Source of the DNA: Spirochaetaceae bacterium
GTDB lineage: Bacteria; Spirochaetota; Spirochaetia; DSM-27196; SLAA01
Reading direction: 5' to 3'
Assembly: GCA_003556605.1 (NCBI GenBank)
Contig: PWQX01000171.1
Location: 1-33,679 of the forward strand
DNA: 33,679 nt
The translations under genes and the position numbers were made by a program. Below, in pieces: positions 3,422 through 21,843 of this stretch. Position 1 is the stretch's first letter. The number at the start of each line of letters is the position of its first letter. Under the pieces are notes generated by a model. The model made no database searches. It had not been told where the DNA came from and saw only the letters and a program-made list of their open reading frames with translations.

Positions 3422-4165
3422 CTAAGGCTCGCGCCGCCGCGCGAGCAGGTACTCCACCTGTCCTTCCTTGGTGAGCGGGATGATTGTGTCGCGGTAAAAC
3501 TCCACTACCACTTCCGCGCCAATCACACGCCGCACTCGGCGGTTCACGTGAGCCTGCAGGTGCTGCACCTTGTCGGCCAAGCGCGCGATGATCGCCGCCT
3601 CGACTTCCGCCCGGGTCAGCATGTCGACCAGTTGCCGGCGATCGTTGGACGAAGCGGCAGCCGCGAACTCCCGCGGTGAGCGCCGGTACTTGGCCTCGGC
3701 AACAAACAACGCCCCGTAATGCACGCGCCGGGCGATTGCCTGGATAGCCGCCACGTCGTGCTCCACACTCGAACCGTACTGCCCGTCGTCAGGCTCTTTG
3801 CACAGGAGCGGCAACTGCGCAATAAACGCGCCACAGATCGACCGCGACCTGCTCACCACGTTGTAATCGTCGACCGCCAGCGGCGGCGCAGTCATATGAA
3901 CCTTCCGGCGGGCGCGGGGAAGCTCTCGAAGCACGGGCCGTTCCTCCGGCACTTCGTACCGTCCGAACTCGGCATCCATCCGTTCCTGCGCCGCCAGCCG
4001 CAGCTCAAACAAAGACTCGTTCCCCGCCCCGGCGAAGCCGCTCGCCCCGCGCTCGTAGGCCTGTGCGTTGCGCGCGAACTGCGCCCGGTCGATGAAGCGG
4101 TGGATGATCGTTTCCTCCAGGGCTTCGAGGCGCGCGGCGATCAAATCCAGATCTAGAATATTCAT
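3422..4165 (-). CDS. Chorismate mutase, eukaryotic (yeast-like) AroQ type
   Basis: Converts chorismate to prephenate, the branch point to phenylalanine and tyrosine. The 247-aa all-helical product matches yeast Aro7/plant chorismate mutase along its length. The N-terminal helix reads RLEALEETIIHRFIDRAQF. A central segment reads ARRVHYGALFVAEAK (yeast RRIHFGKFVAEAK, with the catalytic Arg and Lys). The C-terminus reads YRDTIIPLTKEGQVEYLLAR (yeast IVIPITKEVEVEYLLRR). Bacterial AroQ enzymes of the E. coli type are only about 90 aa. I chose the ATG at 4165 because the homology starts there. An upstream in-frame ATG at 4279 would add 38 residues unlike the family. Oddities: Gln236 replaces yeast Glu246, Ala10 lies where yeast has Arg16, and there is one extra residue between the central Arg and Lys. 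A possible GTGAAC-18-TATGGA promoter ends 9 nt before the ATG. Confidence 0.88.
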   Translation of the reverse strand: MNILDLDLIAARLEALEETIIHRFIDRAQFARNAQAYERGASGFAGAGNESLFELRLAAQERMDAEFGRYEVPEERPVLRELPRARRKVHMTAPPLAVDDYNVVSRSRSICGAFIAQLPLLCKEPDDGQYGSSVEHDVAAIQAIARRVHYGALFVAEAKYRRSPREFAAAASSNDRRQLVDMLTRAEVEAAIIARLADKVQHLQAHVNRRVRRVIGAEVVVEFYRDTIIPLTKEGQVEYLLARRREP

Positions 4166-4271: not shown

Positions 4272-4310
4272 GAAACCACATTTGCTCCTACGAAACCACA
4301 GATTTACATA
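4272..4310 (+). promoter_or_regulatory. Activator-type promoter of the alpha-galactoside importer operon
   Basis: Two direct repeats GAAACCACA lie at 4272-4280 and 4292-4300, 20 bp apart (about two helical turns). They are followed by TACATA at 4305-4310 as the -10 box. The -35 position (TTGCTC, 4282-4287, 17-nt spacer) is weak and sits between the repeats, as expected for an activator-dependent promoter. Direct repeats about 21 bp apart next to a weak -35 are typical of AraC-family activators, and an AraC/MsmR-type gene is the fourth gene of this cluster. The same layout is found on the minus strand at 10512-10550 before the GH4 gene. The predicted leader to the permease start is about 88 nt. 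Confidence 0.7.
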
Positions 4311-4404
4311 TCGCGCCGGCGAGAACCCGAGTTAGAGTGCAGGGTGTCGCGTACCGTAGTGTGCGCAAACCCTCACGCCCGCCCGCAGCGGAAGGAGGTT
4401 CCTC

Positions 4405-5361
4405 TTGACCGACGCGTCAACAGTTAGCTCAACGCCGGACGTCCCTACGACCACCGCCAAACCTCACAAACAGCCCAAACGAAAGAATGGCTACAAGAAA
4501 GACGAGATCGAGGCGGCGGTCTATTTCATCGTGCCCAGTCTGATCGGTTTTACTCTGTTCTTCCTTTTTCCAGCGGTACGGGGATTATTTATGAGCTTCA
4601 CCGATTGGGATTTGCTGACGGAGCCGGAGTTCATTGGGGTGGCGAACTACAGGCGTCTATTCCAAGATCGCTTTTTCTGGAATTCGCTGCGGGTAACGGT
4701 GATGTACGTGCTTTACAACATCCCGATCCAAACGGTGATCGGGCTGGCGATCGCCGTTCTGATGAATCGAGTGAAAAACTCGACGGCACTTCGCGGCGTT
4801 ATCTTGCTGCCTTGGTTTATCCCGAACGTCGTCGTCGGACTGTTGTGGCTGATGCTCTTAAACCCGCTCGTGGGGCCGATAAACCTTATGCTCACCGGCT
4901 TGGGGCTTGATCGCGTTCAGTTTCTCATGCTGCCGCAAACCGCTCTACCGAGCATCGCAGGAATCAACATCTGGCGCCACATGGGCTACGTTGCCCTGCT
5001 TTTCTTCGCCGGGCTCCAGACGATCCCGAATAACCTCTACGAAGCGTCCCGAATCGACGGGGCCTCGCCGTTTCAGGCGTTCTGGAGAATTACCCTGCCT
5101 CTTCTGCGACCCGTTATGACCTTCGTGGTTGTGACGTCGGTGATCGGCTCGTTTCAGATATTCGACACGGTCGCGGTAACTACCGAGGGCGGGCCGATGC
5201 GCTCGACGGAAGTGATGATCTGGTTCATCTTCGACCACGCCTTCCGGCGCTTCAACATGGGCTACGGCGCCGCAGCAACGGTGGTGTTGTTCTTGATTCT
5301 CGTCGTGTTCACATTCGCCTATATGAAGATCACTCGCGGCGGCGAGTCGGACTTAGGCTGA
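4405..5361 (+). CDS. Sugar ABC transporter permease, MalF/MsmF type (CUT1)
   Basis: This inner-membrane subunit of a carbohydrate-uptake-1 ABC importer has 318 aa with a polar N-terminal stretch of about 35 residues and then six hydrophobic helices. The EAA loop that docks on the ATPase is visible near residue 212: EASRIDGASPFQAFWRITLP. The start is a TTG at 4405, supported by a strong GGAAGGAGG ribosome-binding site 6 nt upstream and by the absence of an ATG before the first helix. The next permease starts 12 bp after its stop. No ATP-binding gene is present in this cluster, as is common for CUT1 systems that share a single MsmK/UgpC-type ATPase encoded elsewhere. The neighbouring GH4 alpha-galactosidase and MsmR-type regulator suggest melibiose/raffinose-type substrates. 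Confidence 0.92.
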   Translation: MTDASTVSSTPDVPTTTAKPHKQPKRKNGYKKDEIEAAVYFIVPSLIGFTLFFLFPAVRGLFMSFTDWDLLTEPEFIGVANYRRLFQDRFFWNSLRVTVMYVLYNIPIQTVIGLAIAVLMNRVKNSTALRGVILLPWFIPNVVVGLLWLMLLNPLVGPINLMLTGLGLDRVQFLMLPQTALPSIAGINIWRHMGYVALLFFAGLQTIPNNLYEASRIDGASPFQAFWRITLPLLRPVMTFVVVTSVIGSFQIFDTVAVTTEGGPMRSTEVMIWFIFDHAFRRFNMGYGAAATVVLFLILVVFTFAYMKITRGGESDLG

Positions 5362-5373
5362 GGGGGAAATGCC

Positions 5374-6336
5374 ATGAGCGAACCACATGCATCAGGCAAA
5401 GGCATAAGAACGAACACGCATCCGCCGGCACAAGATGAAAAGGGTGCCCGTACGCTGTCGGCGGAACGGTGGCGACGCCGAGTTCTGGCCGCAGCGGGCG
5501 TTGCTGTTATCGTAGCCGTCACGCTTGGCCCGTTCTACTGGATGCTCCGAACGGCGTTTACATTTCCACCGGAGATTTTTCGAAATCCGCGCAGCATCCT
5601 TCCACCGCAGTGGACCCTGGGAAACTTCATGCGGGTGCTCGGGCTAGTCAGCCCGGCGGAAGCGGTCGCGCTTGGAGGCACCGGCCAAGCCCTCGGGTTT
5701 GCTCTATCGCTTCGAAACTCACTTATCGTAACCGCGAGCATCACCATATCGCAAGTATTCTTCAGCGCCTGTGCGGCCTACGCCTTCGCACGCCTCCGTT
5801 TTCCGTTCCGCGACAGCCTGTTTAGCATCTACGTGGCGGCGCTGATGATTCCGCTTATCGTGACGGTGATTCCTAACTTTGCGTTCATCCAGGAGCTCGG
5901 CTGGCTCAACACCTTCCGCGGAATCGTCGCGCCGTTCTTCTTGATGACGCCGCTGGCGGTGTTTTTTATGCGCCAGTTCTTTGTGAGCATCAATAAGGAG
6001 CTTGAAGAGTCGGCCTATCTCGACGGCGCGGGCCGGCTTACCACGGCATTTCGCATCGTGTTTCCCATGAGCACGCCGGCGCTGATGACTTGCGCGATAA
6101 TCGTCGCCACGACCACATGGAATGAATACCTGTGGATGCTGATCGTGGGACGCGACAGGGCCGTGCGCGTGCTTACCGTCGCATTAGGTATCTTCCGACA
6201 GCAAACGCCCCAAGGTGCTCCCGACTGGGGCGGACTAATGGCCGGAACGATGCTGGCAACCGTTCCAATCGCGCTCGTGTTCCTGCTCCTTGGAAAGCAC
6301 GTGGTCAACTCAATCGGTCACACCGGTTTCCGTTAA
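5374..6336 (+). CDS. Sugar ABC transporter permease, MalG/MsmG type (CUT1)
   Basis: Second membrane subunit of the same importer, 320 aa. The N-terminal cytoplasmic stretch is about 30 residues, followed by six hydrophobic helices, and the EAA loop reads EESAYLDGAGRLTTAFRIVF in the second half. The ATG at 5374 is preceded by AGGGGGAA as ribosome-binding site. The gene lies 12 bp after the first permease and 105 bp before the binding-protein gene. That gap carries a strong hairpin, which may let the binding protein be made in larger amounts than the permeases. It forms a heterodimer with the upstream permease. The periplasmic loop between helices 1 and 2 is fairly long, as in MalG-type subunits. 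Confidence 0.92.
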   Translation: MSEPHASGKGIRTNTHPPAQDEKGARTLSAERWRRRVLAAAGVAVIVAVTLGPFYWMLRTAFTFPPEIFRNPRSILPPQWTLGNFMRVLGLVSPAEAVALGGTGQALGFALSLRNSLIVTASITISQVFFSACAAYAFARLRFPFRDSLFSIYVAALMIPLIVTVIPNFAFIQELGWLNTFRGIVAPFFLMTPLAVFFMRQFFVSINKELEESAYLDGAGRLTTAFRIVFPMSTPALMTCAIIVATTTWNEYLWMLIVGRDRAVRVLTVALGIFRQQTPQGAPDWGGLMAGTMLATVPIALVFLLLGKHVVNSIGHTGFR

Positions 6337-6384
6337 GGCTCCGCGAGCATAGACTCGCTGAAAAATATTTGCGAACGAATTGAT

Positions 6385-6412
6385 CGGCGGCGGTAGGCGC
6401 TAATCGCCGCCG
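6385..6412 (+). other. Strong intercistronic hairpin between permease and binding-protein genes
   Basis: CGGCGGCG (6385-6392) pairs perfectly with CGCCGCCG (6405-6412) across a 12-nt loop. No T run follows, so it is unlikely to be a terminator. A hairpin in this place could block 3'-5' decay or mark a processing site, separating the amounts of binding protein and permeases. A second small stem, GCGAG/CTCGC, lies just after the permease stop. Confidence 0.5.
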
Positions 6413-6441
6413 CCGGCAGAAACTGGAAAGGAGGATAAGAG

Positions 6442-7782
6442 ATGCCGAAAAGAATGATTATTGTACTTGCGGTGGTGGTTATCGTAATAGTGATTGCGGT
6501 ACTTGCTACCCGCGAGGACCCCGACGTGGTAGTCGACGAGGATGTAGCAATTGAGTACATCCTATGGGACGCTTCGCAGCTTCCGGCCTATACCGAAGTA
6601 GCGGAGTTGTTCATGGAACGAAATCCGGACATCGAAATCAATATTGTCCAGATGGGTTGGGGGGACTATTGGGACGACTTGACCCGCCGCCTCGCTACGG
6701 ACGACGCTCCCGACGTGTGGACCAACCACGTCGCGTTTTTCCGCGATTTCGCGGAGCGCGGACAGATGCTCGCGCTTGATGACCGCATCGAACAGTCGGA
6801 CATCATCGAGCTGAACGCTTTCATGCCGGGTCTCGCGGATCTGTTCGTATTCGAGGGTGCGAACTACGGGTTGCCGAAGGACTGGGACACCATCGCGGTC
6901 TTGTATAACAAGGAGCATGTCGCTGAAGCAGGTATCGATCGCGAAGAGCTCGAAAACTTGACCTGGAATCCAGATGACGGCGGGAGCTACCAGGAGGTCA
7001 TTCAGCGGCTCACGCTCGATGTAAACGGCAACGACGGACTGAGCCCCGGCTTTGATCGAAACAACACCGCACGCCACGGATTCGCGGAGGCCTTCGACGC
7101 TATGAGCGCGTGGGGTCAGACCCAGTTTTCGCTCCTCGCCAAAACTCTCGACTGGGAGTTCCACAACGAAACGGCAACCGAGTTCTACTTCGACGAGCCG
7201 GAGTTCGTCAGCATCATCGAGTGGATGAGAATGATGACCGACGAGGGTTACTACCTGCCATTCGAAGACAGCGAAAGCGTGAACGAGCTGCTCGTTGCCG
7301 GCGAGGTGTCGATGGTTACCGACGGCTCATGGATGATCGGCTTTTACACGGACAATATGGGAGATAACGTGGGCTTTGCTCCGATTCCCCATGGTCCGCA
7401 GGGCCGCAACAGCATGTTCAACGGGCTTTCGGACGCAATCTGGTCCGGCACCGACAATCCGGAAGAGGCGTGGAAGTGGGTTGAGTTCCTTGCTTCGCCC
7501 GAAGCCCAAGAGATTGTCGGAAGCTACGGCGTGGTCTTCCCCGCCGTCGCATCAGCCACCGAGATCGCGCTAGATGTCTACGCGCAGCGCGGGCACGACG
7601 TGTCGGCATACACCGACCTTGCTTTCGACGACGAGAAGAACCACCTTCATCCGATTGCCGCAAACGCCACCCAAATCGACAGCATCATGCAGGACGCCTT
7701 CGAGCGAATCTGGCTGGCCCCGGCGGATCCGGCCGACGAACTGGCGCGCGCGACCGCCGAGATTAACGCGTTGTTCCGTTAA
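6442..7782 (+). CDS. Sugar ABC transporter substrate-binding protein (CUT1, MsmE/MalE type)
   Basis: Extracytoplasmic receptor that captures the sugar and delivers it to the two permeases. The product is 446 aa. It has a short basic N-terminus, one long hydrophobic stretch (about residues 5-22) and then an acidic mature protein. The mature part has family features such as YTEVAELFMERNPDIEINI, DAPDVWT, WDTIAVLYNKEHVAEAGI and the later WKWVEFLASPEAQEI. There is no lipobox cysteine, so it is either cleaved by signal peptidase I (possible VLA/T site) or stays anchored by its N-terminus. Many Gram-negative spirochaete homologues are lipoproteins, so this is a little unusual. The ATG at 6442 has an AAAGGAGG ribosome-binding site. 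It is the last gene of the importer operon, closed by a clear terminator at 7810-7845. Confidence 0.92.
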   Translation: MPKRMIIVLAVVVIVIVIAVLATREDPDVVVDEDVAIEYILWDASQLPAYTEVAELFMERNPDIEINIVQMGWGDYWDDLTRRLATDDAPDVWTNHVAFFRDFAERGQMLALDDRIEQSDIIELNAFMPGLADLFVFEGANYGLPKDWDTIAVLYNKEHVAEAGIDREELENLTWNPDDGGSYQEVIQRLTLDVNGNDGLSPGFDRNNTARHGFAEAFDAMSAWGQTQFSLLAKTLDWEFHNETATEFYFDEPEFVSIIEWMRMMTDEGYYLPFEDSESVNELLVAGEVSMVTDGSWMIGFYTDNMGDNVGFAPIPHGPQGRNSMFNGLSDAIWSGTDNPEEAWKWVEFLASPEAQEIVGSYGVVFPAVASATEIALDVYAQRGHDVSAYTDLAFDDEKNHLHPIAANATQIDSIMQDAFERIWLAPADPADELARATAEINALFR

Positions 7783-7809
7783 GCCGGTAAGAGCTCTCTC
7801 GGAACCTTC

Positions 7810-7845
7810 AAGGCGGTTCGGGGTGTCCCCCGGATCGCCTTTTTT
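7810..7845 (+). terminator. Rho-independent terminator of the importer operon
   Basis: A continuous 14-bp stem (7810-7823 with 7828-7841, two G-U pairs) closes on a TGTC tetraloop. Its 3' arm runs into six T at 7840-7845. It lies 28 bp after the binding-protein stop and separates the importer operon from the AraC-type regulator gene. Confidence 0.9.
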
Positions 7846-7852
7846 CTGTTTC

Positions 7853-7870
7853 TTGTGTGTATACTCACAA
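7853..7870. promoter_or_regulatory. Near-perfect palindrome upstream of the AraC-type regulator gene
   Basis: TTGTGTGTATACTCACAA is an 18-bp inverted repeat with a single mismatched pair, and one more C-G pair extends it on the outside (7852/7871). It covers the -35 region of the regulator promoter (-10 at 7887-7892), so a protein bound here would affect expression of the regulator. The binding factor is unknown. It does not resemble the GAAACCACA boxes proposed for the regulator itself. Confidence 0.45.
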
Positions 7871-7886
7871 GGTCCCACAACCGTGC

Positions 7887-7899
7887 TATACTAACGGTG
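7887..7899 (+). promoter_or_regulatory. -10 box giving a leaderless mRNA of the AraC-type regulator
   Basis: TATACT at 7887-7892 is followed by exactly 7 nt and then the ATG at 7900, so transcription would begin at or next to the start codon. No purine-rich ribosome-binding site can be fitted in. A weak -35 (CTCACA) lies at 7864-7869. The same -10, 7 nt, start arrangement recurs before three other genes in this window. Confidence 0.5.
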
Positions 7900-9012
7900 A
7901 TGAAGCAACTAGAATACGCCGAAAGCACCGCAACCGAGCCGCTGAATGCGTTTGCCGAAGTGCTTCATGCCGGCTACGAGAAATGTAATCCCAAGCACTA
8001 CGCAGCAATCCCACGCGACCATTACCTGCTGCACCTGGTCCTCGCCGGACAAGGGAAGGTGCGCGTCAGTTCAGACGTTTACAAGCTGCGCAGTCATCAG
8101 TGTTTTTTGATCCGTCCCGCTCAAGACCACGCCTACCAGGCCGACGCCGAGAACCCGTGGGAGTACATCTGGTTGGGGTTCGCGGGGGTTACCGATACGG
8201 TGCTGCACCAGACCTACGGGGTGCCCCCGCACGCCGCCGCCTTCACTCCGGCCTCCCCGGCCCGGCTTGAGTTCCACCTTCGCCGCATTCTCACCGCACT
8301 GCAGAGCCCCAACCCGCTCGAACAGTTGTACAGCCAAGCATTAGCCGTGCTGGCACTTGGGTGTCTGGGGGAGCACCACGGGGTTGCCGCCAACGGTCGT
8401 TCGCAGCCGGATTACGTCGACGAGGCGGTGTCGTACATTGAGTCGAACTACGCGAAGCTCAAGAACGTCCAATCGGTCGCCGATTACGTCGGGCTTGATC
8501 GCTCGTATTTTTCGAAGCTGTTCCAGGAGCGTACCGGAATCAGCGTCGGGAGCTTCCTCGCCGAAACGCGCATGAGCCACGCAAAACGCCTGCTGGTCGA
8601 CACCAATTACAAGGTCAACGTTATCGCCGAACTGGTGGGGTACGAGAATTACCAGTCGTTTGAGCGCCGATTCACCAGCCTCGTGGACATGTCGCCGACA
8701 GCGTTTCGCAGCCGGCCGGCCGGCGAGCGCGTGAAGGCCGGTAGGCTCACCACGACCGCCGCGAGAACACTCGCCGCGCCCCAGGCACGCACAATTGGCC
8801 CCAAGCCTATCGCAGCCGCACAGGACCCGCCGCCGGAGCCCCTGACACCGCCGGAATCGGATTCATCGGGCGGCCTGAGCGGTCACGACGAGCATACCTA
8901 CCGGGGCAAGTCTTTCGACCGCTCCGCCCCTCCCCAATCCGATGCGGCGGCGTTACTCAGCGGATCGCGCGGCTGCCCGTCATACATCAAACGCCGCAAA
9001 CGCCGCACCTGA
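7900..9012 (+). CDS. AraC-family transcriptional activator, MsmR/RafR-like
   Basis: Sugar-responsive DNA-binding protein, probably the activator of the alpha-galactoside genes around it. The product is 370 aa. Residues ~10-150 form an AraC-type cupin sensor domain with the MsmR-like stretch CFLIRPAQDHAYQADAENPW followed by EYIWLGFAG. Residues ~170-270 hold the two helix-turn-helix motifs: SVADYVGLDRSYFSKLFQER, then VIAELVGYENYQSFERRF and the closing MSPTAFR. A tail of about 100 residues follows that is rich in Pro, Ala, Ser and Arg. Normal family members end just after MSPTAFR, so the tail is odd. I chose the ATG at 7900 because it fits the family length, lies behind the terminator and follows a -10 box by 7 nt. 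A GTG at 7855 would lie upstream of that promoter. Its likely targets are the paired boxes at 4272-4310 and 10512-10550. Confidence 0.88.
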   Translation: MKQLEYAESTATEPLNAFAEVLHAGYEKCNPKHYAAIPRDHYLLHLVLAGQGKVRVSSDVYKLRSHQCFLIRPAQDHAYQADAENPWEYIWLGFAGVTDTVLHQTYGVPPHAAAFTPASPARLEFHLRRILTALQSPNPLEQLYSQALAVLALGCLGEHHGVAANGRSQPDYVDEAVSYIESNYAKLKNVQSVADYVGLDRSYFSKLFQERTGISVGSFLAETRMSHAKRLLVDTNYKVNVIAELVGYENYQSFERRFTSLVDMSPTAFRSRPAGERVKAGRLTTTAARTLAAPQARTIGPKPIAAAQDPPPEPLTPPESDSSGGLSGHDEHTYRGKSFDRSAPPQSDAAALLSGSRGCPSYIKRRKRRT

Positions 9013-9062
9013 ACTCTCGTCATATTGCACCGCTCGAAGTATCACGCGCTCATGGACGCCTG

Positions 9063-10400
9063 CTACCGGTAGAATCCTTCCGGAAGAAAATCGCGGTGCG
9101 CCTCGAACAGCTCGTCACACAGTGCCACGATATCGTCTAACGAGAGCTCGGCAGCCGTCAGCGGGTCTAACGCCGCGGCTTGATAGACGTTTGTCCGCTC
9201 CTGCGTTCGGGCTGCCTCCATCACTAGCATCTGCACATTGATATTGGTACGATTCAGCGCCGCGCATTGCTCGGGAAGAGCCCCAACGGCAACACCGTGT
9301 ACGCCGTTGTCGTCCACGAGGCAGGGGACTTCCACCACGCTGCCGGTTGGTAGGTTCGCGATATGCCCCGCGTTCAGTATGTTGCCGTGGACGCGGGTCG
9401 GTTCGCCGAAAACAATCCCCCTGATGATGTCGGCAGCGTACTCGATGGTACGCTCGTGCGCGATTGCCGGACTGGCAAGCAGCGCGGTGCGCATGTTGTC
9501 CCATTCTGCGACCTGCTCACGGCACCGGCGGGGATACTCATCCAACGGAATGCGGTAGCGGTCAATCAGTTCCGGGTAGCCGGTTTTGATCCACCACGGC
9601 GTGTACTCGGCGTTGTGCTCCGACGACTCGGTAGTGTAATACCCGAACGTGTTTAGAACCGACAGTCGCACGAGATCGTCGGTCTTGGTTTCCTCGCAGT
9701 GCTGCGCCGCCGCGACGATCTCTCGCGCCCTCCGCCGGGCCTCGGGGTAGATGTCCTGTTCACCGTCACGGAGGCTCAGCAACCACGCCATGTGATTGAT
9801 TCCGGCGACTTCCCAGCGGGGATCCTCGGCCTCGAGGTCAACCGCTTCCAGGAGCTCCTCGGCGCAGCGCTGCACCGAGTGGCACAGCCCCACTGTCTTG
9901 ACCGCAGTCTCACGCAGCATCGCCCCGGTGCAGATCGCCATCGGGTTGGTGTAGTTCAGAAACCAGGCGTTGGGGCAGACCGCGGCTATATCGGCGCCGA
10001 TCTCCCACATCGGCGGAACGGTACGCAACCCGCGGAAGATCCCGCCGATACCCAGCGTATCGCCGATCGTTTGGCGCAGTCCGTACTTCTTGGGAATCTC
10101 AAAGTCGCGCACCGTGCCCGGGTCATATCCTCCAACTTGAATAGCATTAATAACGAAGTCTGCACCACGCAAGGCATCACGGCGATTCTCAGGGCCCACA
10201 TAGCCGTATACGCTCGCCCGACCGGCATTGATGCCGGTGTTGAGCGTGCGAACCAGACGAAGCGAGTCGTCGAGACGCCCGGCATCAATATCGTAGAGCG
10301 CTATCTCAACATCGTGTAAACCGTCTTCGAGCAAGATATCGCCGATGATATTCTTCGCAAATACAGTGCTACCGGCCCCGATGAAGCTGATCTTTACCAT
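9063..10400 (-). CDS. melA: Alpha-galactosidase, glycoside hydrolase family 4 (MelA type)
   Basis: Cytoplasmic NAD- and Mn-dependent glycosidase that cleaves alpha-galactosides such as melibiose by an oxidation/elimination route. The product is 445 aa. It has an N-terminal Rossmann motif GAGSTVFAKNI, then NYTNPMA, the metal-binding Cys173 in GLCHSVQ and His203 in GINHMAW. The CHSVQ form is that of MelA/galacturonidase-type GH4 enzymes acting on unphosphorylated substrates, whereas 6-phosphoglycosidases have a different motif there. This agrees with an ABC importer rather than a PTS. I chose the ATG at 10400, not 10415, because GGAGG sits 5 nt before it. The gene has its own promoter with the same boxes as the importer operon and converges with the regulator gene, 50 bp apart. 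An alpha-galacturonidase activity is the main alternative. Confidence 0.88.
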   Translation of the reverse strand: MVKISFIGAGSTVFAKNIIGDILLEDGLHDVEIALYDIDAGRLDDSLRLVRTLNTGINAGRASVYGYVGPENRRDALRGADFVINAIQVGGYDPGTVRDFEIPKKYGLRQTIGDTLGIGGIFRGLRTVPPMWEIGADIAAVCPNAWFLNYTNPMAICTGAMLRETAVKTVGLCHSVQRCAEELLEAVDLEAEDPRWEVAGINHMAWLLSLRDGEQDIYPEARRRAREIVAAAQHCEETKTDDLVRLSVLNTFGYYTTESSEHNAEYTPWWIKTGYPELIDRYRIPLDEYPRRCREQVAEWDNMRTALLASPAIAHERTIEYAADIIRGIVFGEPTRVHGNILNAGHIANLPTGSVVEVPCLVDDNGVHGVAVGALPEQCAALNRTNINVQMLVMEAARTQERTNVYQAAALDPLTAAELSLDDIVALCDELFEAHRDFLPEGFYR

Positions 10401-10439
10401 CACATCCTCCGTCATTCCGCCGCTTCGAAAGTCCGCGCA

Positions 10440-10471
10440 ACAGCCGTACAGCCTATACAGCCTATACAGCC
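10440..10471. repeat. Four ACAGCC repeats in the GH4 leader
   Basis: ACAGCC occurs at 10440, 10448, 10457 and 10466 (period 8-9 bp; the last units read TATACAGCC). The array lies between the predicted GH4 transcription start (about 10505) and the start codon, so the mRNA would carry four GGCTGT units. It could be a protein site or simply a slipped repeat. Confidence 0.6.
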
Positions 10472-10511
10472 GCTAAACGATCACACGCTACGCCATATCG
10501 CGGCCGGGAGC

Positions 10512-10550
10512 TATGTAAATGTGTTTCTCTGCAACACGAAATGTGGTTTC
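10512..10550 (-). promoter_or_regulatory. Activator-type promoter of the GH4 alpha-galactosidase gene
   Basis: On the minus strand GAAACCACATTT begins at 10550. A second, imperfect half-site, GAAACACATTT, begins at 10527 and runs into TACATA (10517-10512), the -10 box. The distance from the first G of the upstream box to the -10 is 33 bp, identical to the importer promoter at 4272-4310, and TTTACATA is also identical. There is no good -35. The predicted leader is about 105 nt. Confidence 0.7.
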
Positions 10551-12564: not shown

Positions 12565-13761
12565 TTAGTCGTCGATAGGGAGCGCCAATTGGCCGCAGTT
12601 GCCCTCGGCACGTGCCGTCGCTGCAGCGCGCAGCTGTGCGTTCCCCGTCCCGGTTTGCTCGTCCGGGCGTCCGGCCGACCCGCCGGTGTTCTGCGCGGCA
12701 AAACCCGGCAGCCATGGCGGCAATTGCAGCGGCTTGTGCGCCGCCTGAAAAGTAGTCGCACCGATCTTTCGAACCGCCGTCGGAACGGTCAGCTGCAGTT
12801 CAGTCTCCTGCCGTGTCATCACTGGAAACCCATGAGGAGTGTTCTCGTGCTGCGGTGGCTTGCCTTCCTCGGTGCGCCGTGAAACGAACTCCCGGTGCGC
12901 ATTCACACGCTCGAACACCCGAGCGCTGCCGGCCTCGGGCGCAGCGTTAATCGTCTGCTCAATTACGGGCTCAAACGCGGGATCGCTTTCGTAGCCCACC
13001 GTGCTGCGGGCTGCCGCAATCCCGGCGGCCATCGTGGTACCCGTGCCGACAAAGGGATCAAGCACGGTGTCTCCCTGCAGGCTGTACATATTGATCAGCC
13101 GATAAGCCAGCTCAAACGGAAAAGCACCGCTGCGCGCCCGCTGCGTTCCGTTTCCCAGCTCCTGCCGGATACCTTTGAAGCTCCATACATCCGAAAACCA
13201 CTCGTTGCGCTCTTCCCAGAAGAAAGCGCTGCGCCGGCGGCGAGCTTTGCCGGCTTCCCCAAACTCGCGCTTCTCACCCTTGCGAAAAACGAGAATATAC
13301 TCGTGCTCCAGGGTCACATACGCGCCGGCCGGCAGCATACCCGAGCCCATGAACTTATTCGGTGCGTTCGTCTGTTTGCGCCACAGGATCACGGGAAGCG
13401 ACCGCAGGCCTAGCTGCCGGCAGCGTTGAATCACGCGCGAATGATTCGGGTAGAGTTGAAAGCCGGTGCCGAGCGTTCGCGTCGCATCGCCGATATTGAT
13501 ACAGGCAAACCCGCCGGGCACCAGCACGCGAGCGCACTCCGCCCAGACTGCATCCAGCACTGCGTGCATCAACTCAAACGCCGTAACTCCGTCGCCCGCT
13601 TCCAAGGCCTTGCCGACACCGGGAGCCTGTTCGGCGAAGCTCGCGTCCCACATCTCGATCATCGGGTACGGTGGCGAAGTCAGGACAAGCTCTACCGATG
13701 CGTCGGAAAGCTCGCCGAGCGAACAGCCGCTGCGAAAATATGCCGTGTGCGTCGAAGTCAT
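12565..13761 (-). CDS. Orphan DNA methyltransferase, beta-class N4/N6 type
   Basis: Transfers a methyl group from SAM to an exocyclic amino group of cytosine (N4) or adenine (N6) in DNA. The product is 398 aa. Catalytic motif IV, TSPPYP, is at residues 28-33, and the SAM-binding motif LDPFVGTGTT comes about 200 residues later. This IV-before-I order defines the beta class. S-P-P-Y favours N4-cytosine but does not prove it. After the catalytic domain comes a tail of about 100 residues rich in Gln, Thr, Ala and Pro with no recognisable domain. I chose the ATG at 13761 because the upstream ATG at 13773 lies inside the -10 box TATGCT, which is 7 nt before 13761. No restriction endonuclease gene is next to it, so it is an orphan in this window and may act in regulation or phage protection. 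Confidence 0.85.
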   Translation of the reverse strand: MTSTHTAYFRSGCSLGELSDASVELVLTSPPYPMIEMWDASFAEQAPGVGKALEAGDGVTAFELMHAVLDAVWAECARVLVPGGFACINIGDATRTLGTGFQLYPNHSRVIQRCRQLGLRSLPVILWRKQTNAPNKFMGSGMLPAGAYVTLEHEYILVFRKGEKREFGEAGKARRRRSAFFWEERNEWFSDVWSFKGIRQELGNGTQRARSGAFPFELAYRLINMYSLQGDTVLDPFVGTGTTMAAGIAAARSTVGYESDPAFEPVIEQTINAAPEAGSARVFERVNAHREFVSRRTEEGKPPQHENTPHGFPVMTRQETELQLTVPTAVRKIGATTFQAAHKPLQLPPWLPGFAAQNTGGSAGRPDEQTGTGNAQLRAAATARAEGNCGQLALPIDD

Positions 13762-13768
13762 GAGCCAC

Positions 13769-13774
13769 AGCATA
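13769..13774 (-). promoter_or_regulatory. -10 box giving a leaderless methyltransferase mRNA
   Basis: On the minus strand TATGCT is followed by 7 nt (GTGGCTC) and the ATG at 13761. There is no ribosome-binding site. The -35 region is GC-rich and poor (CTGGCG at an 18-nt spacer). The spacing equals that of three other genes here. Confidence 0.45.
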
Positions 13775-17975: not shown

Positions 17976-18031
17976 GGCGGCGTCATCTCGCGGGTGGCGT
18001 CCGGCATGCCGGCCGGAGGGTTCCAGGCGTG

Positions 18032-18068
18032 TTGTAGACCGATAGAGCTTTTTGCTATTATTCGCCTC
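18032..18068 (+). promoter_or_regulatory. Promoter of the Rbs-type operon, leaderless
   Basis: TTGTAG (18032-18037), an 18-nt spacer and TATTAT (18056-18061) are followed by 7 nt and the GTG start at 18069. The predicted transcription start therefore falls on the start codon, and no ribosome-binding site is present. Confidence 0.6.
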
Positions 18069-19673
18069 GTGCCGAACGAAACCGAAGCCATCCTGAGCCT
18101 GCAGGGCCTGTCAAAGGTTTACCCGGGTACGGTCGCGCTGCAAGGCGTAGACCTCCAGATCCGCCGCGGAGAGACGCACGGCATCATCGGCAAGAACGGT
18201 GCCGGCAAGACAACGCTGGTCGGCATTGTCGCCGGTCTGATACGTCCAACCGCCGGGGTTGTCCGGGTCAACGGTCACGACTACGCCCGTCTCACGCGCA
18301 TCGCCGCGCGCAAGCTAGGGGTCGCGATCGTGCCGCAGGAACCACAGATGGTTCAGGAAGCGACGATAGCCGAAAACCTCTTCATGCCCGACTACGTACG
18401 CCGCGCTAACGGCACGCTTGTCGACTGGTTTGCGATGCAGCGTGCCGCTGCCGATATCCTGCGCAAAGGCAACCTCAATCTCGACGTGCGCACCAAGGCG
18501 GCCGATGTCGGCCCCGGCGTGCAACAGATTCTGCTGATGCTGAGGGCGAGCTATGTTGAGCAGGCCGAGATCATCATTCTCGATGAAGCGTTCGCATCGC
18601 TGTCCGAGCGGGAAGAACGTTTGTTCTACGAGCTCATCCGCGAGCGCAAGCAGGCCGGCTGTACCATCTTACATATCTCTCACCGCATCGATGAGCTGTT
18701 GCAGGTCTGCGACCGCATGACCGTGCTGCGAGACGGAAGGTCAATTCGCACCGTGCGGCGCGAGGAGGTAGACAAGGACTCGTTGGCGGCCCTGATCGTC
18801 GGTGAGGATCAGGAGCATCGGGGCGCAGTGCCTACCCGCGCAGTGCCTACCCGCGCAGTGCCTACCCGCGCAGAGGTGAGACGCGGTGACGGCGAACACG
18901 CTGCGCGCAAGGTCTTCCCGGAACAGCCTCCCGTGCTCGTGGTGGAGCGACTCACCCTCGCCGAGCGGTTCCACAACATCAGTTTCGCGGTACACCGCAA
19001 CGAGATCTTGGGCATCGCAGGCTTGATCGGCAGCGGCCGCACCTCCATTCTCAAGTCGATCTTCGGGCTCGAGCCGCACGACTCCGGCGTGGTCCGCCTC
19101 AACGGTAAGGAGGTCGCGATCGACAGCCCCATAACGGCGCTCCGCCACGGGGTGGTGTACTTACCGGAAGAACGCGACGAGGAGGGACTCGTCACCTCTC
19201 TGAGCGTAAGATCGAACCTGGTGCTCAGCGCCCTGCGGCGAGTTGCGAACCGCTTCATGATCGATAAGATCCGCGAGCAGGAGCTTGCCCGCAGTCTCGC
19301 CGGACAGCTCGCGCTGACCTTCGCGTCGTTCGATCAGGAGGTCAGCGAACTGAGCGGGGGCAACCGGCAAAAAGTCGTGGTCGGTAAAGTGCTGTCAACC
19401 GAACCGCAGGTCTTTCTGCTCGACGAGCCTACCAAAGGCATAGACATCGCCGCGAAGACCGGGCTGTTACACATTATCCGCGATGAGCTGCGCGCGAACG
19501 CTGCGATCATCGTAACCTCACCCGGACTCGATGACCTCATGGAGATCTGCGATCGCATCATTGTCGTGTACGACGGCACCCTCCTCGGAAGCTACCGGGC
19601 CCGGGAGTTCCAGGAAGAGCGTCTGTACAAGGCAATTCAGGGTAACGTAGTACAGGGGGATGAGACACCGTAA
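18069..19673 (+). CDS. Sugar ABC transporter ATP-binding protein, RbsA type (two ABC domains)
   Basis: Cytoplasmic ATPase of a carbohydrate-uptake-2 importer. The product is 534 aa with two ABC domains. The first has Walker A GKNGAGKTT near residue 40, a signature region that has degenerated to GPGVQQILLML, and Walker B IIILDEA near 170. The second has the RbsA-type altered Walker A GLIGSGRTS near 318, a proper signature LSGGNRQK near 427 and Walker B FLLDEPTKGID. The linker between the domains contains the pentapeptide AVPTR three times in a row, from a perfect 15-bp DNA repeat. The GTG at 18069 is chosen because family members start eight to ten residues before ILSLQGLSK and because the -10 box lies 7 nt upstream. 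The stop codon overlaps the permease ATG by one base, so the two are coupled. Confidence 0.93.
   Translation: MPNETEAILSLQGLSKVYPGTVALQGVDLQIRRGETHGIIGKNGAGKTTLVGIVAGLIRPTAGVVRVNGHDYARLTRIAARKLGVAIVPQEPQMVQEATIAENLFMPDYVRRANGTLVDWFAMQRAAADILRKGNLNLDVRTKAADVGPGVQQILLMLRASYVEQAEIIILDEAFASLSEREERLFYELIRERKQAGCTILHISHRIDELLQVCDRMTVLRDGRSIRTVRREEVDKDSLAALIVGEDQEHRGAVPTRAVPTRAVPTRAEVRRGDGEHAARKVFPEQPPVLVVERLTLAERFHNISFAVHRNEILGIAGLIGSGRTSILKSIFGLEPHDSGVVRLNGKEVAIDSPITALRHGVVYLPEERDEEGLVTSLSVRSNLVLSALRRVANRFMIDKIREQELARSLAGQLALTFASFDQEVSELSGGNRQKVVVGKVLSTEPQVFLLDEPTKGIDIAAKTGLLHIIRDELRANAAIIVTSPGLDDLMEICDRIIVVYDGTLLGSYRAREFQEERLYKAIQGNVVQGDETP
18825..18873 (+). repeat. In-frame 15-bp tandem repeat (AVPTR x3)
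   Basis: GCAGTGCCTACCCGC occurs three times exactly (18825-18839, 18840-18854, 18855-18869), followed by the first four bases of a fourth copy. The unit is a multiple of three, so copy-number change lengthens or shortens the inter-domain linker without breaking the frame. Confidence 0.95.
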
Positions 19674-20686
19674 TGTGGACTATGAAACGCAGTACCAGAG
19701 TACAGATGTTCTTAATCGACAATCTGATCTGGGTATTGGTGGCCGCGTTCTTTCTGGTCAACGCGATCGTGACCCCACGCTTTGCGTCTTACGCCAACGT
19801 CGTGAATATTCTCTACCATTCAGCCATCATGAGCATGCTGGTGCTCGGACAGGGCCTCGTGCTGATCAACGGCAAGCTCGACCTTTCGATTGAGTCAACG
19901 CTCGGATTCGCCCCGGGGATCGCGATGTTGCTTGCGATGCAGCAGTTTCCGGACCTCATCGGCCCGATCACCGCAATCGTAATCACACTCGTAATCGGAG
20001 GCTCTTTAGGATGGTTCAACGGCGTCTGCATCGCCAAGCTCAAGATCAACCCGCTGCTGCAGACCTTGGCGACGATGATCATGATTCGCGGGATCTTGCT
20101 TTTTATCTTTCCGTTTTCCTTGTTCCCGCTGGACCCGCTGTACCGCTATGCCGGTGCCGGCAGACTTCCCGGCAACATTCCGGTATCGATCCCGCTGATC
20201 CTCGTGATCTTCTTCGTGCTGAACCTCGTGCTGCAGCATACGCCCTTCGGGCGCCGATTCGTCGCCGCCGGCGGAAACCCCAAGGCGAGTCATGTTTCCG
20301 GAATCAATGTCGATCGCATGACGGCGTACGCCTTTGTGCTGGCCGGCGTCTTAGCGGCGGTGGGAGGGCTCTTGGCCGCCGGTCGCCAGGGGTCTATCTC
20401 GAATTCGATGGGCGAGGGCATGGTACTGCTGTCCTTTGCCGGAGCTTTGATGGGCGGCGCAAGTCTGCAAGGCGGTAAGGGCACACCGCTGGGAATGCTC
20501 GGCGGGGCGCTCTTGCTGGGGATGTTCTCGAACTCGCTCAATTTGCTCGGTGTTGGGCCGAGCCTGATTTACGCGTCGAAAGGTGCCCTTATCTTTGTCG
20601 CACTGCTGCTCGACCGCGGGCGCGTTCGCTGGCGGGGTTATCTGCTGCACAAGGAACAGCTCGAAGCACTTGATCTAAAAGAGTAA
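19673..20686 (+). CDS. Sugar ABC transporter permease, RbsC type
   Basis: Inner-membrane subunit of the same CUT2 importer, 337 aa with about nine to ten hydrophobic helices. Family features are VLGQGLVLINGKLDLSIEST near residue 60 (usual form G-x-DLSVG), GWFNGVCIAKLKINPLLQTL and the cytoplasmic segment FGRRFVAAGGNPKASHVSGI, which contacts the ATPase. The usual DLSVGS motif has become DLSIEST, a minor change. The ATG shares its first base with the last base of the ATPase stop, so translation is coupled. The binding-protein gene follows after 56 bp, the last part of which is an AAAAGGAG ribosome-binding site. As one permease gene serves the system, the membrane part is expected to be a homodimer. 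Confidence 0.93.
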   Translation: MWTMKRSTRVQMFLIDNLIWVLVAAFFLVNAIVTPRFASYANVVNILYHSAIMSMLVLGQGLVLINGKLDLSIESTLGFAPGIAMLLAMQQFPDLIGPITAIVITLVIGGSLGWFNGVCIAKLKINPLLQTLATMIMIRGILLFIFPFSLFPLDPLYRYAGAGRLPGNIPVSIPLILVIFFVLNLVLQHTPFGRRFVAAGGNPKASHVSGINVDRMTAYAFVLAGVLAAVGGLLAAGRQGSISNSMGEGMVLLSFAGALMGGASLQGGKGTPLGMLGGALLLGMFSNSLNLLGVGPSLIYASKGALIFVALLLDRGRVRWRGYLLHKEQLEALDLKE

Positions 20687-20742
20687 AACAGTCTAAGAAA
20701 ACAGCACGCGAGGGTGGAAACGCCCGAAAAAGGAGAACTGTT

Positions 20743-21843
20743 ATGAGGACGAAAAAGCACACTACGCCGATCCGTCTGCTGTCGGCCGTCATGCTGCTGG
20801 GAGCGTTGATCTTCGCATCAACCGCCGACCGGCTGCACGCCGCAGGTACCGCAGAAGAGGAGATGACCTTTGGAATGGTCATCAAGTATCCCGGGACGCC
20901 GTACATCGAAGCGTTCATTTACGCAGCCGAGGAGAAGGCTGAGGAGCTCGGCGTGCGCTTGCTGATCCGCGACGGCGAGGGCGATGCGCAAACCATCATG
21001 AACCACATGGACACGTTCATCGTGCAAGACATCGACGGGTTTATCATGGCCGGAGCGGTCGACCAGCGAGCCATCGTGCCCGGCGTGCAGATGCTCAACG
21101 AGGCCGGTATTCCGATCACCGCAATCGACACGAGCCCGGAAGGCGGCCGCGTCGACTACTTCATCAGCGCCGACGTAACCGGCCAAAGCGCCCTCGCGGC
21201 CGAAGCCTTCATCGAGGGCATCAAGGACCGCAACGGCGGCGAAGTTCCTGAAGGCGTGGTGATCGAGATTACCGGCGACGTACGCGATATGTACACGCGC
21301 GCAGCCAACGAAGGCTTCATGTCGGTTGTCGGCGAGTACCCCCAGCTTACCGTTGCGCAAGGCGACGGGCAGTGGAACAACATCGACGCGCACGAGCGTG
21401 CGAGCGACCTCTTGACTCGTCACGGGGACGACGTGCTCGGTATCTATGTCCAAACCCCCGACATCATGGGACCGGGAGTCGTGGAAGCGATCACCGCTGC
21501 CAACCGCAACCCCGCAGATTACGGCATTACCGGCACCTGGATGGGCCCTGAGGGGCAGGAATTGATTAGGAATAACCAGGCGCTCGGAATCGTCGCTATG
21601 CCGGCCTACGTCCCGGCGCAGATGGCGGTAGATCTGTTGTACCGCCTGGTGGTGGGTGAAGACGTCCCGCAACTCGGGGACATACTCGAAGAGGAAGGTG
21701 CGGTGTGGTCGCCTGCGGAAGTGAAGGAAAGCCCGTGGGCCGATGAAGGGTTATACATCGAGCTGCAGGCCCCCATCGTCCCTCTGGACGTCGACGTAGA
21801 CGATCCCCGTCTTTGGGAGAATCGGCTCAACCACCTGTGGTAA
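20743..21843 (+). CDS. Sugar ABC transporter substrate-binding protein, RbsB-like
   Basis: Periplasmic receptor of the CUT2 importer, 366 aa. A signal peptide (basic start, hydrophobic core about residues 11-26, cleavage likely after DRLHA) leads into a two-lobed binding protein of the Peripla_BP_4 kind: MTFGMVIKYPGTPYIEAFIY, then DIDGFIMAGAVDQRAIVPGV, ITAIDTSPEG and the hinge region around VVIEITGDVRD. The acidic residues suit an extracytoplasmic protein. The ligand is unknown. Family members bind ribose, xylose, galactose, allose or autoinducer-2, and no sugar-kinase gene is nearby to narrow the choice. Last gene of the operon, followed by a strong hairpin. Confidence 0.92.
   Translation: MRTKKHTTPIRLLSAVMLLGALIFASTADRLHAAGTAEEEMTFGMVIKYPGTPYIEAFIYAAEEKAEELGVRLLIRDGEGDAQTIMNHMDTFIVQDIDGFIMAGAVDQRAIVPGVQMLNEAGIPITAIDTSPEGGRVDYFISADVTGQSALAAEAFIEGIKDRNGGEVPEGVVIEITGDVRDMYTRAANEGFMSVVGEYPQLTVAQGDGQWNNIDAHERASDLLTRHGDDVLGIYVQTPDIMGPGVVEAITAANRNPADYGITGTWMGPEGQELIRNNQALGIVAMPAYVPAQMAVDLLYRLVVGEDVPQLGDILEEEGAVWSPAEVKESPWADEGLYIELQAPIVPLDVDVDDPRLWENRLNHLW

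Follow-up and report, generated by a model that had tools for sequence, protein, structure and literature searches.

In the streptococcal msm and raf loci, an AraC-type activator (MsmR or RafR) accompanies a CUT1 importer and an alpha-galactosidase of family GH36, and in E. coli melAB the GH4 alpha-galactosidase MelA is paired with the MelB symporter. The locus described here follows the same gene logic as the streptococcal loci but with a GH4 enzyme in place of GH36; with MelR-melAB it shares the combination of an AraC-type regulator and a GH4 alpha-galactosidase, whereas a CUT1 importer stands in place of MelB and both the sequence and the arrangement of the sites differ. At the level of the operator, the half-sites of CphR (Rhodococcus cphA2A1) have been mutated and mapped to -69/-55 and -49/-35, and in each a 6-bp gap separates the 5' sub-box from the 3' sub-box (PMC6205950); the XylS sites at Pseudomonas Pm follow the same half-site plan (PMC5481539), and the AraC operator at E. 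coli araBAD overlaps the -35 region (PMC2893085). The sites reported below resemble those of CphR and XylS in having two 15-bp direct half-sites with sub-boxes 6 bp apart, a period of ∼20–21 bp, and an end at -34/-35 that overlaps the -35 region, a position counted here from a predicted -10; they differ in their sub-boxes (CACA and CATA/CATG, as compared to TGCA and GGNTA) and in serving sugar genes rather than aromatic catabolism. As in E. coli AraC, the regulator combines an AraC_binding domain with a double HTH and the operator overlaps -35, but neither a loop operator nor a divergently placed araC was seen at this locus, where a terminator precedes the regulator gene and its own predicted promoter. 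The S. pyogenes MsmR motifs ACTGTGACCATAA and GAATAGCTATTC, in the form in which a passage of PMC9722767 cites them, are unlike the present operator.

The window, a stretch of 33,679 nucleotides, comes from a Spirochaetaceae bacterium (assembly GCA_003556605.1, contig PWQX01000171.1), and its importer and GH4 genes point in opposite directions with an AraC-family gene between them (Table 1). Profile matches bore out the original prediction that the controlled genes are a CUT1 importer and a MelA-type GH4 enzyme: the former comprises two BPD_transp_1 permeases and an SBP_bac_1 protein, and the latter, well over the alpha-galactosidase cut-off, also matched PF02056 (201.5 bits) and PF11975 (187.8 bits). 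CHSV is the active-site motif of GH4 alpha-galactosidases, and it was found here within GLCHSVQRC. The importer operon contains no MalK-type ATPase; three OB_MalK proteins are encoded elsewhere in the genome. For the binding protein, no specificity model exceeded its cut-off in the NCBIfam search, and its nearest solved relatives (UspC the closest) bind other sugars, so that it is the GH4 family that points to an alpha-galactoside as the probable substrate. Elsewhere in the window, a divergent gene at 3425-4165 shares the intergenic region with the importer operon and matched a plant/yeast-type chorismate mutase model just below its cut-off (161.5 versus 170.9 bits). A DNA methylase gene (N6_N4_Mtase, remotely CcrM-like; 12568-13773) lies beside a class II aldolase and an MFS gene, and an aldo/keto reductase gene is followed by a further ABC operon of the sugar type (17994-21843; double ATPase, BPD_transp_2 permease, Peripla_BP_4).

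Table 1. Positions of genes and predicted regulatory features within the window
Feature	Position	Strand	Remark
Distal half-site, importer operator (CACA-N6-...)	4277..4291	+	Conserved at G255 permF and all compared GH4 promoters
Proximal half-site, importer operator, CACAGATTTACATAT (CACA-N6-CATAT)	4297..4311	+	20 bp after distal; contains TACATA
Probable -10, importer promoter, TAGAGT	4333..4338	+	TATCCT at equal offset in G255
permF, CUT1 permease 1 (MalF/UgpA-like, PF00528)	4405..5361	+	TTG start after GGAGG
permG, CUT1 permease 2 (MalG/UgpE-like, PF00528)	5374..6336	+	Family profile match
Sugar-binding protein (SBP_bac_1)	6442..7782	+	Nearest solved structure UspC
Intrinsic terminator (14-bp hairpin and T run) between binding protein and regulator genes	7810..7844	+	z = -3.04
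Extended -10 of regulator gene, TGC-TATACT	7884..7892	+	7 nt before ATG
AraC-family regulator (AraC_binding sensor, two HTHs, ∼95-aa C-terminal extension)	7900..9012	+	Profile search
GH4 alpha-galactosidase	9063..10400	-	NF011657, 588.5 bits vs cut-off 486; CHSV motif
Probable -10, GH4 promoter, TAGCGT	10485..10490	-	Shared TAnnnT offset
Proximal half-site, GH4 operator, AACACATTTACATAG (AACA-N6-CATAG)	10511..10525	-	Sequence comparison
Distal half-site, GH4 operator (CACA-N6-...)	10531..10545	-	Overlaps box of original prediction (10539-10550)

Two matching 39-bp sites had been predicted upstream of the importer and GH4 genes, and both were recovered exactly: GAAACCACATTTGCTCCTACGAAACCACAGATTTACATA at 4272-4310 (+) and GAAACCACATTTCGTGTTGCAGAGAAACACATTTACATA at 10512-10550 (-), which share the pattern GAAACCACATTT-N19-TTTACATA with an identical distance of 33 bp from the start of the box to TACATA. 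The box GAAACCACATTT of the importer site (4272-4283) overlaps the distal half-site as we now define it. The claim of a second half-site held in part: the importer promoter alone has a clean repeat, the 9-bp GAAACCACA located 20 bp downstream, and the one at the GH4 promoter is weak, with either AACA at the matching register or GAAACACA 23 bp downstream. A scan of the whole source genome (3.88 Mb, 99.4% complete) with this shared pattern returned exactly two sites at 0 mismatches and still only the same two with up to 3 mismatches over the 20 fixed bases, so none preceded an unrelated gene; a reversed-pattern control gave 0 matches. Because a CUT1 permease query had 24 matches in this genome, the site is not general to CUT1 operons. 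The mere two copies might be read as a chance likeness, or as copies of a dispersed repeat with no regulatory role, but the chance expectation for the window was 0.00 (100 dinucleotide-preserving shuffles), there were no other genomic copies, and other genera have kept the positions ahead of orthologous genes despite diverged flanks, which makes this reading extremely improbable.

Orthologues of the regulator were sought in 395 genomes of the class (E <= 1e-40) and found in G003 (84% identical, contig-truncated), G255 (71%, covering the AraC core), G206, G121, and G154 (58–60%), and, remotely, G244; there were no further ones in all 46 genomes of the order. In G255, a member of another family, the locus is complete, with GH4 followed by convergent AraC, SBP, permG, and permF, and its proteins are 54–79% identical to their counterparts. 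Its permF site is GAACCCACAATTGCTTCTACGACACCACAGATATACATA (expectation 0.00 in 200 shuffles), and its permF and GH4 boxes carry the identical two substitutions, giving the altered 12-mer GAACCCACAATT, the outcome expected if a single protein reads the two sites. G001, of the same genus as the source genome, retains the site in front of its GH4 gene (81% identical), and the back-to-back arrangement of that gene with galT and galK is in line with galactose as a product. The source genome's own galT gene (L137) has no site, and the Leloir genes thus seem to lie outside the regulon. The AraC and GH4 genes are adjacent in G255, G206, G121, and G154, as in the window, and an AraC-type gene was found near GH4 in 38 of 80 GH4 loci from many phyla. 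The GH4 promoters of G206, G121, and G154 keep the layout CACA-N17-CACM-N6-[CT]ATGG-N20/21-TAnnnT; in the g8 relatives, whose regulators are 58–60% identical, the half-site plan is recognisable but the long box is not. In two of these loci (L134:9228-9310 and L135:8784-8866) the GH4 -10, TAGTAT, ends 6 nt before the ATG, which suggests a leaderless GH4 mRNA. The divergent neighbour of GH4 in the g8 relatives is another gene (338–349 aa) and not a CUT1 operon, and the gene upstream of araC encodes a permease that, judged from its sequence only, is unlike the CUT1 ones. A box-like match at L134:13050 precedes a gene for a small CxxC-type protein and was not counted as a site.

Aligned, eight promoters share the plan CACA-N16/17-[CA]AC[AC]-N6/7-[CT]ATR, then 21–22 bp, then TAnnnT; the 3' sub-box of the distal half-site is not conserved among the promoters compared. 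This conserved plan agrees with the AraC/XylS-type direct repeat proposed originally, with two direct half-sites ∼20–21 bp apart that overlap the -35 region relative to the predicted -10. A search of seven genomes with CACA-N16/17-nACM-N6-nATR-N21/22-TAnnnT recovered both source sites, both G255 sites, and the GH4 promoters of G206, G121, and G154, missing that of G001 by one extra base; beyond these it matched only two unrelated positions, both in G154, a number close to the control rate of two. A slightly looser plan applied to 119 kb of loci found the 8 promoters and nothing else (simulated mean 0.017), but because the plan was defined after inspection of these promoters, such matches gauge specificity more than independent discovery.

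The promoter itself is where our reading departs from the original one, in which TACATA was the -10 and the upstream boxes, bound by the same AraC-type activator, flanked the -35. TACATA is indeed identical at both source promoters at its fixed 33-bp distance, but it scored low as a -10 under a rough sigma-70 matrix, it is replaced by TCCATG at the G255 GH4 promoter, and it is unlike the conserved -10 of the regulator gene (TATACT/TATAAT). A hexamer TAnnnT, on the other hand, recurs 60–61 bp from where the box begins in all five long-box promoters (TAGAGT, TATCCT, TAGCGT, TACCAT, and TACCCT), as compared to at most three of five in 5000 shuffles, and it was the best -10 match in the scanned stretch for three of the five. 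Were TACATA the -10, the second repeat would fall within the spacer between -35 and -10, where a bound activator should obstruct polymerase and a repressor would be better placed; class-II geometry fits the downstream -10 only. We therefore consider that TACATA as a -10 is probably a wrong reading, an arrangement to which we give little credence, and that TAnnnT is likely the -10 of both promoters, with the CATA within TACATA serving as the putative 3' sub-box of the proximal half-site. That half-site ends ∼20–21 bp before a poor TAnnnT -10 with hardly any -35, and if TAnnnT occupies -12 to -7 the half-sites lie at approximately -68/-54 and -48/-34. TTTACA was rejected as a -35 because TAnnnT lies 23–24 bp further on, an excessive distance for a -35/-10 pair. 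A 10-bp unit, GGCTGTATAG, is also repeated in tandem about three times in the GH4 leader (10434-10473), a repeat not seen in G001 or G255.

We propose, with a probability of about 0.78, that both sites are operators of one small alpha-galactoside regulon and are read by the AraC/XylS-type regulator encoded at 7900-9012. The earlier idea that one regulator serves both units is strengthened by the conservation in G255 of the locus and of both boxes, which have drifted together, as well as by the retention of the GH4 box in G001 and of the GH4 promoter layout in a further three genomes. The sites could instead be shared operators of another regulator acting in trans, such as a LacI- or ROK-type repressor, with the local AraC protein controlling something else. 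In G001 (92% complete, 460 contigs) the site persists although no regulator or importer orthologue was found, through either loss or an assembly gap, and this would favour a regulator in trans, as would an inverted repeat, GGTGTT-N7-AACACC, in the same promoter, matched weakly by GTGTT-N7-AACAC in the source GH4 promoter. That repeat, however, is missing from the other three long-box promoters, namely both permF sites and G255 GH4, and was rejected as the operator; what is conserved is a direct repeat in the position of an activator, and wherever an orthologue had a visible neighbourhood (G003, G255, G206, G121, and G154), the regulator gene accompanied the importer, GH4, or the two together. 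A regulator in trans thus appears unlikely, and because the half-site register is within 1 bp of that of CphR, class-II activation by the neighbouring regulator would be the best explanation.

The regulator has a double HTH (PF12833, 67.9 bits versus a 33.6 cut-off; PF00165 in two stretches) and an N-terminal AraC_binding sensor (PF02311, 53 bits versus 21.1). Its best full-length NCBIfam match was AraC, at 83 bits versus a cut-off of 208, its match to the MelR model was confined to the HTH part (53 bits versus 253), and no MsmR family was among the best 25 NCBIfam matches listed; the original label, MsmR-like, amounts here to a generic AraC-family assignment. Its gene is probably transcribed separately, because it has a strong terminator upstream and its own extended -10, which is matched by TGG-TATACT in G003 and TGA-TATAAT in G255; the short distance from this -10 to the ATG indicates that the message is probably leaderless or nearly so. 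An imperfect palindrome, CTTGTGTGTATACTCACAAG (7852-7871), lies upstream of this -10 and was not evident at the matching region of G003 or G255. The HTH is followed by a low-complexity extension of ∼95 residues (8719-9012) that ends in GSRGCPSYIKRRKRR; that of G255 is longer with a similar end, GSRGCPSRIRKPK, possibly a conserved tail. It is a doubtful conjecture that these proteins form a spirochaete AraC-type lineage with a constant half-site plan, in which the operator sub-boxes change from genus to genus in step at every target, and in which the long C-terminal extension, with its conserved end GSRGCPSxI, is itself regulatory.

In the mechanism that we propose, a dimer of the regulator would sit on two direct half-sites with a spacing of ∼20 bp; both have a CACA-like 5' sub-box, and a CATA/CATG 3' sub-box is clear in the proximal one. 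An alpha-galactoside, or a product thereof, would bind the sensor domain, and the ligand-bound regulator would recruit RNA polymerase from a class-II (-35-overlapping) position, switching on the intracellular GH4 alpha-galactosidase together with the CUT1 importer, whose MalK-type ATPase would come from elsewhere in the genome. From the DNA and protein sequences we infer that this regulator binds the sites and activates transcription instead of repressing it, and we take an alpha-galactoside or its product to be the probable inducer in view of the enzyme's GH4 family and of the nearby galT and galK genes in G001.

To our knowledge, few AraC-type operators have been described in uncultured spirochaetes, and the literature searched contained no description of an alpha-galactoside regulon of this kind for spirochaetes. 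The locus is best regarded as a probable two-target alpha-galactoside regulon of a familiar type, an ordinary sugar regulon whose switch appears conserved in relatives. The shared regulation would tie an otherwise unspecific CUT1 importer to alpha-galactosides, and a conserved A/T-rich hexamer beside a repeat can be operator instead of -10. The paired sites would offer, for uncultured spirochaetes, a compact and conserved model of how the operator of an AraC-type regulator is built.
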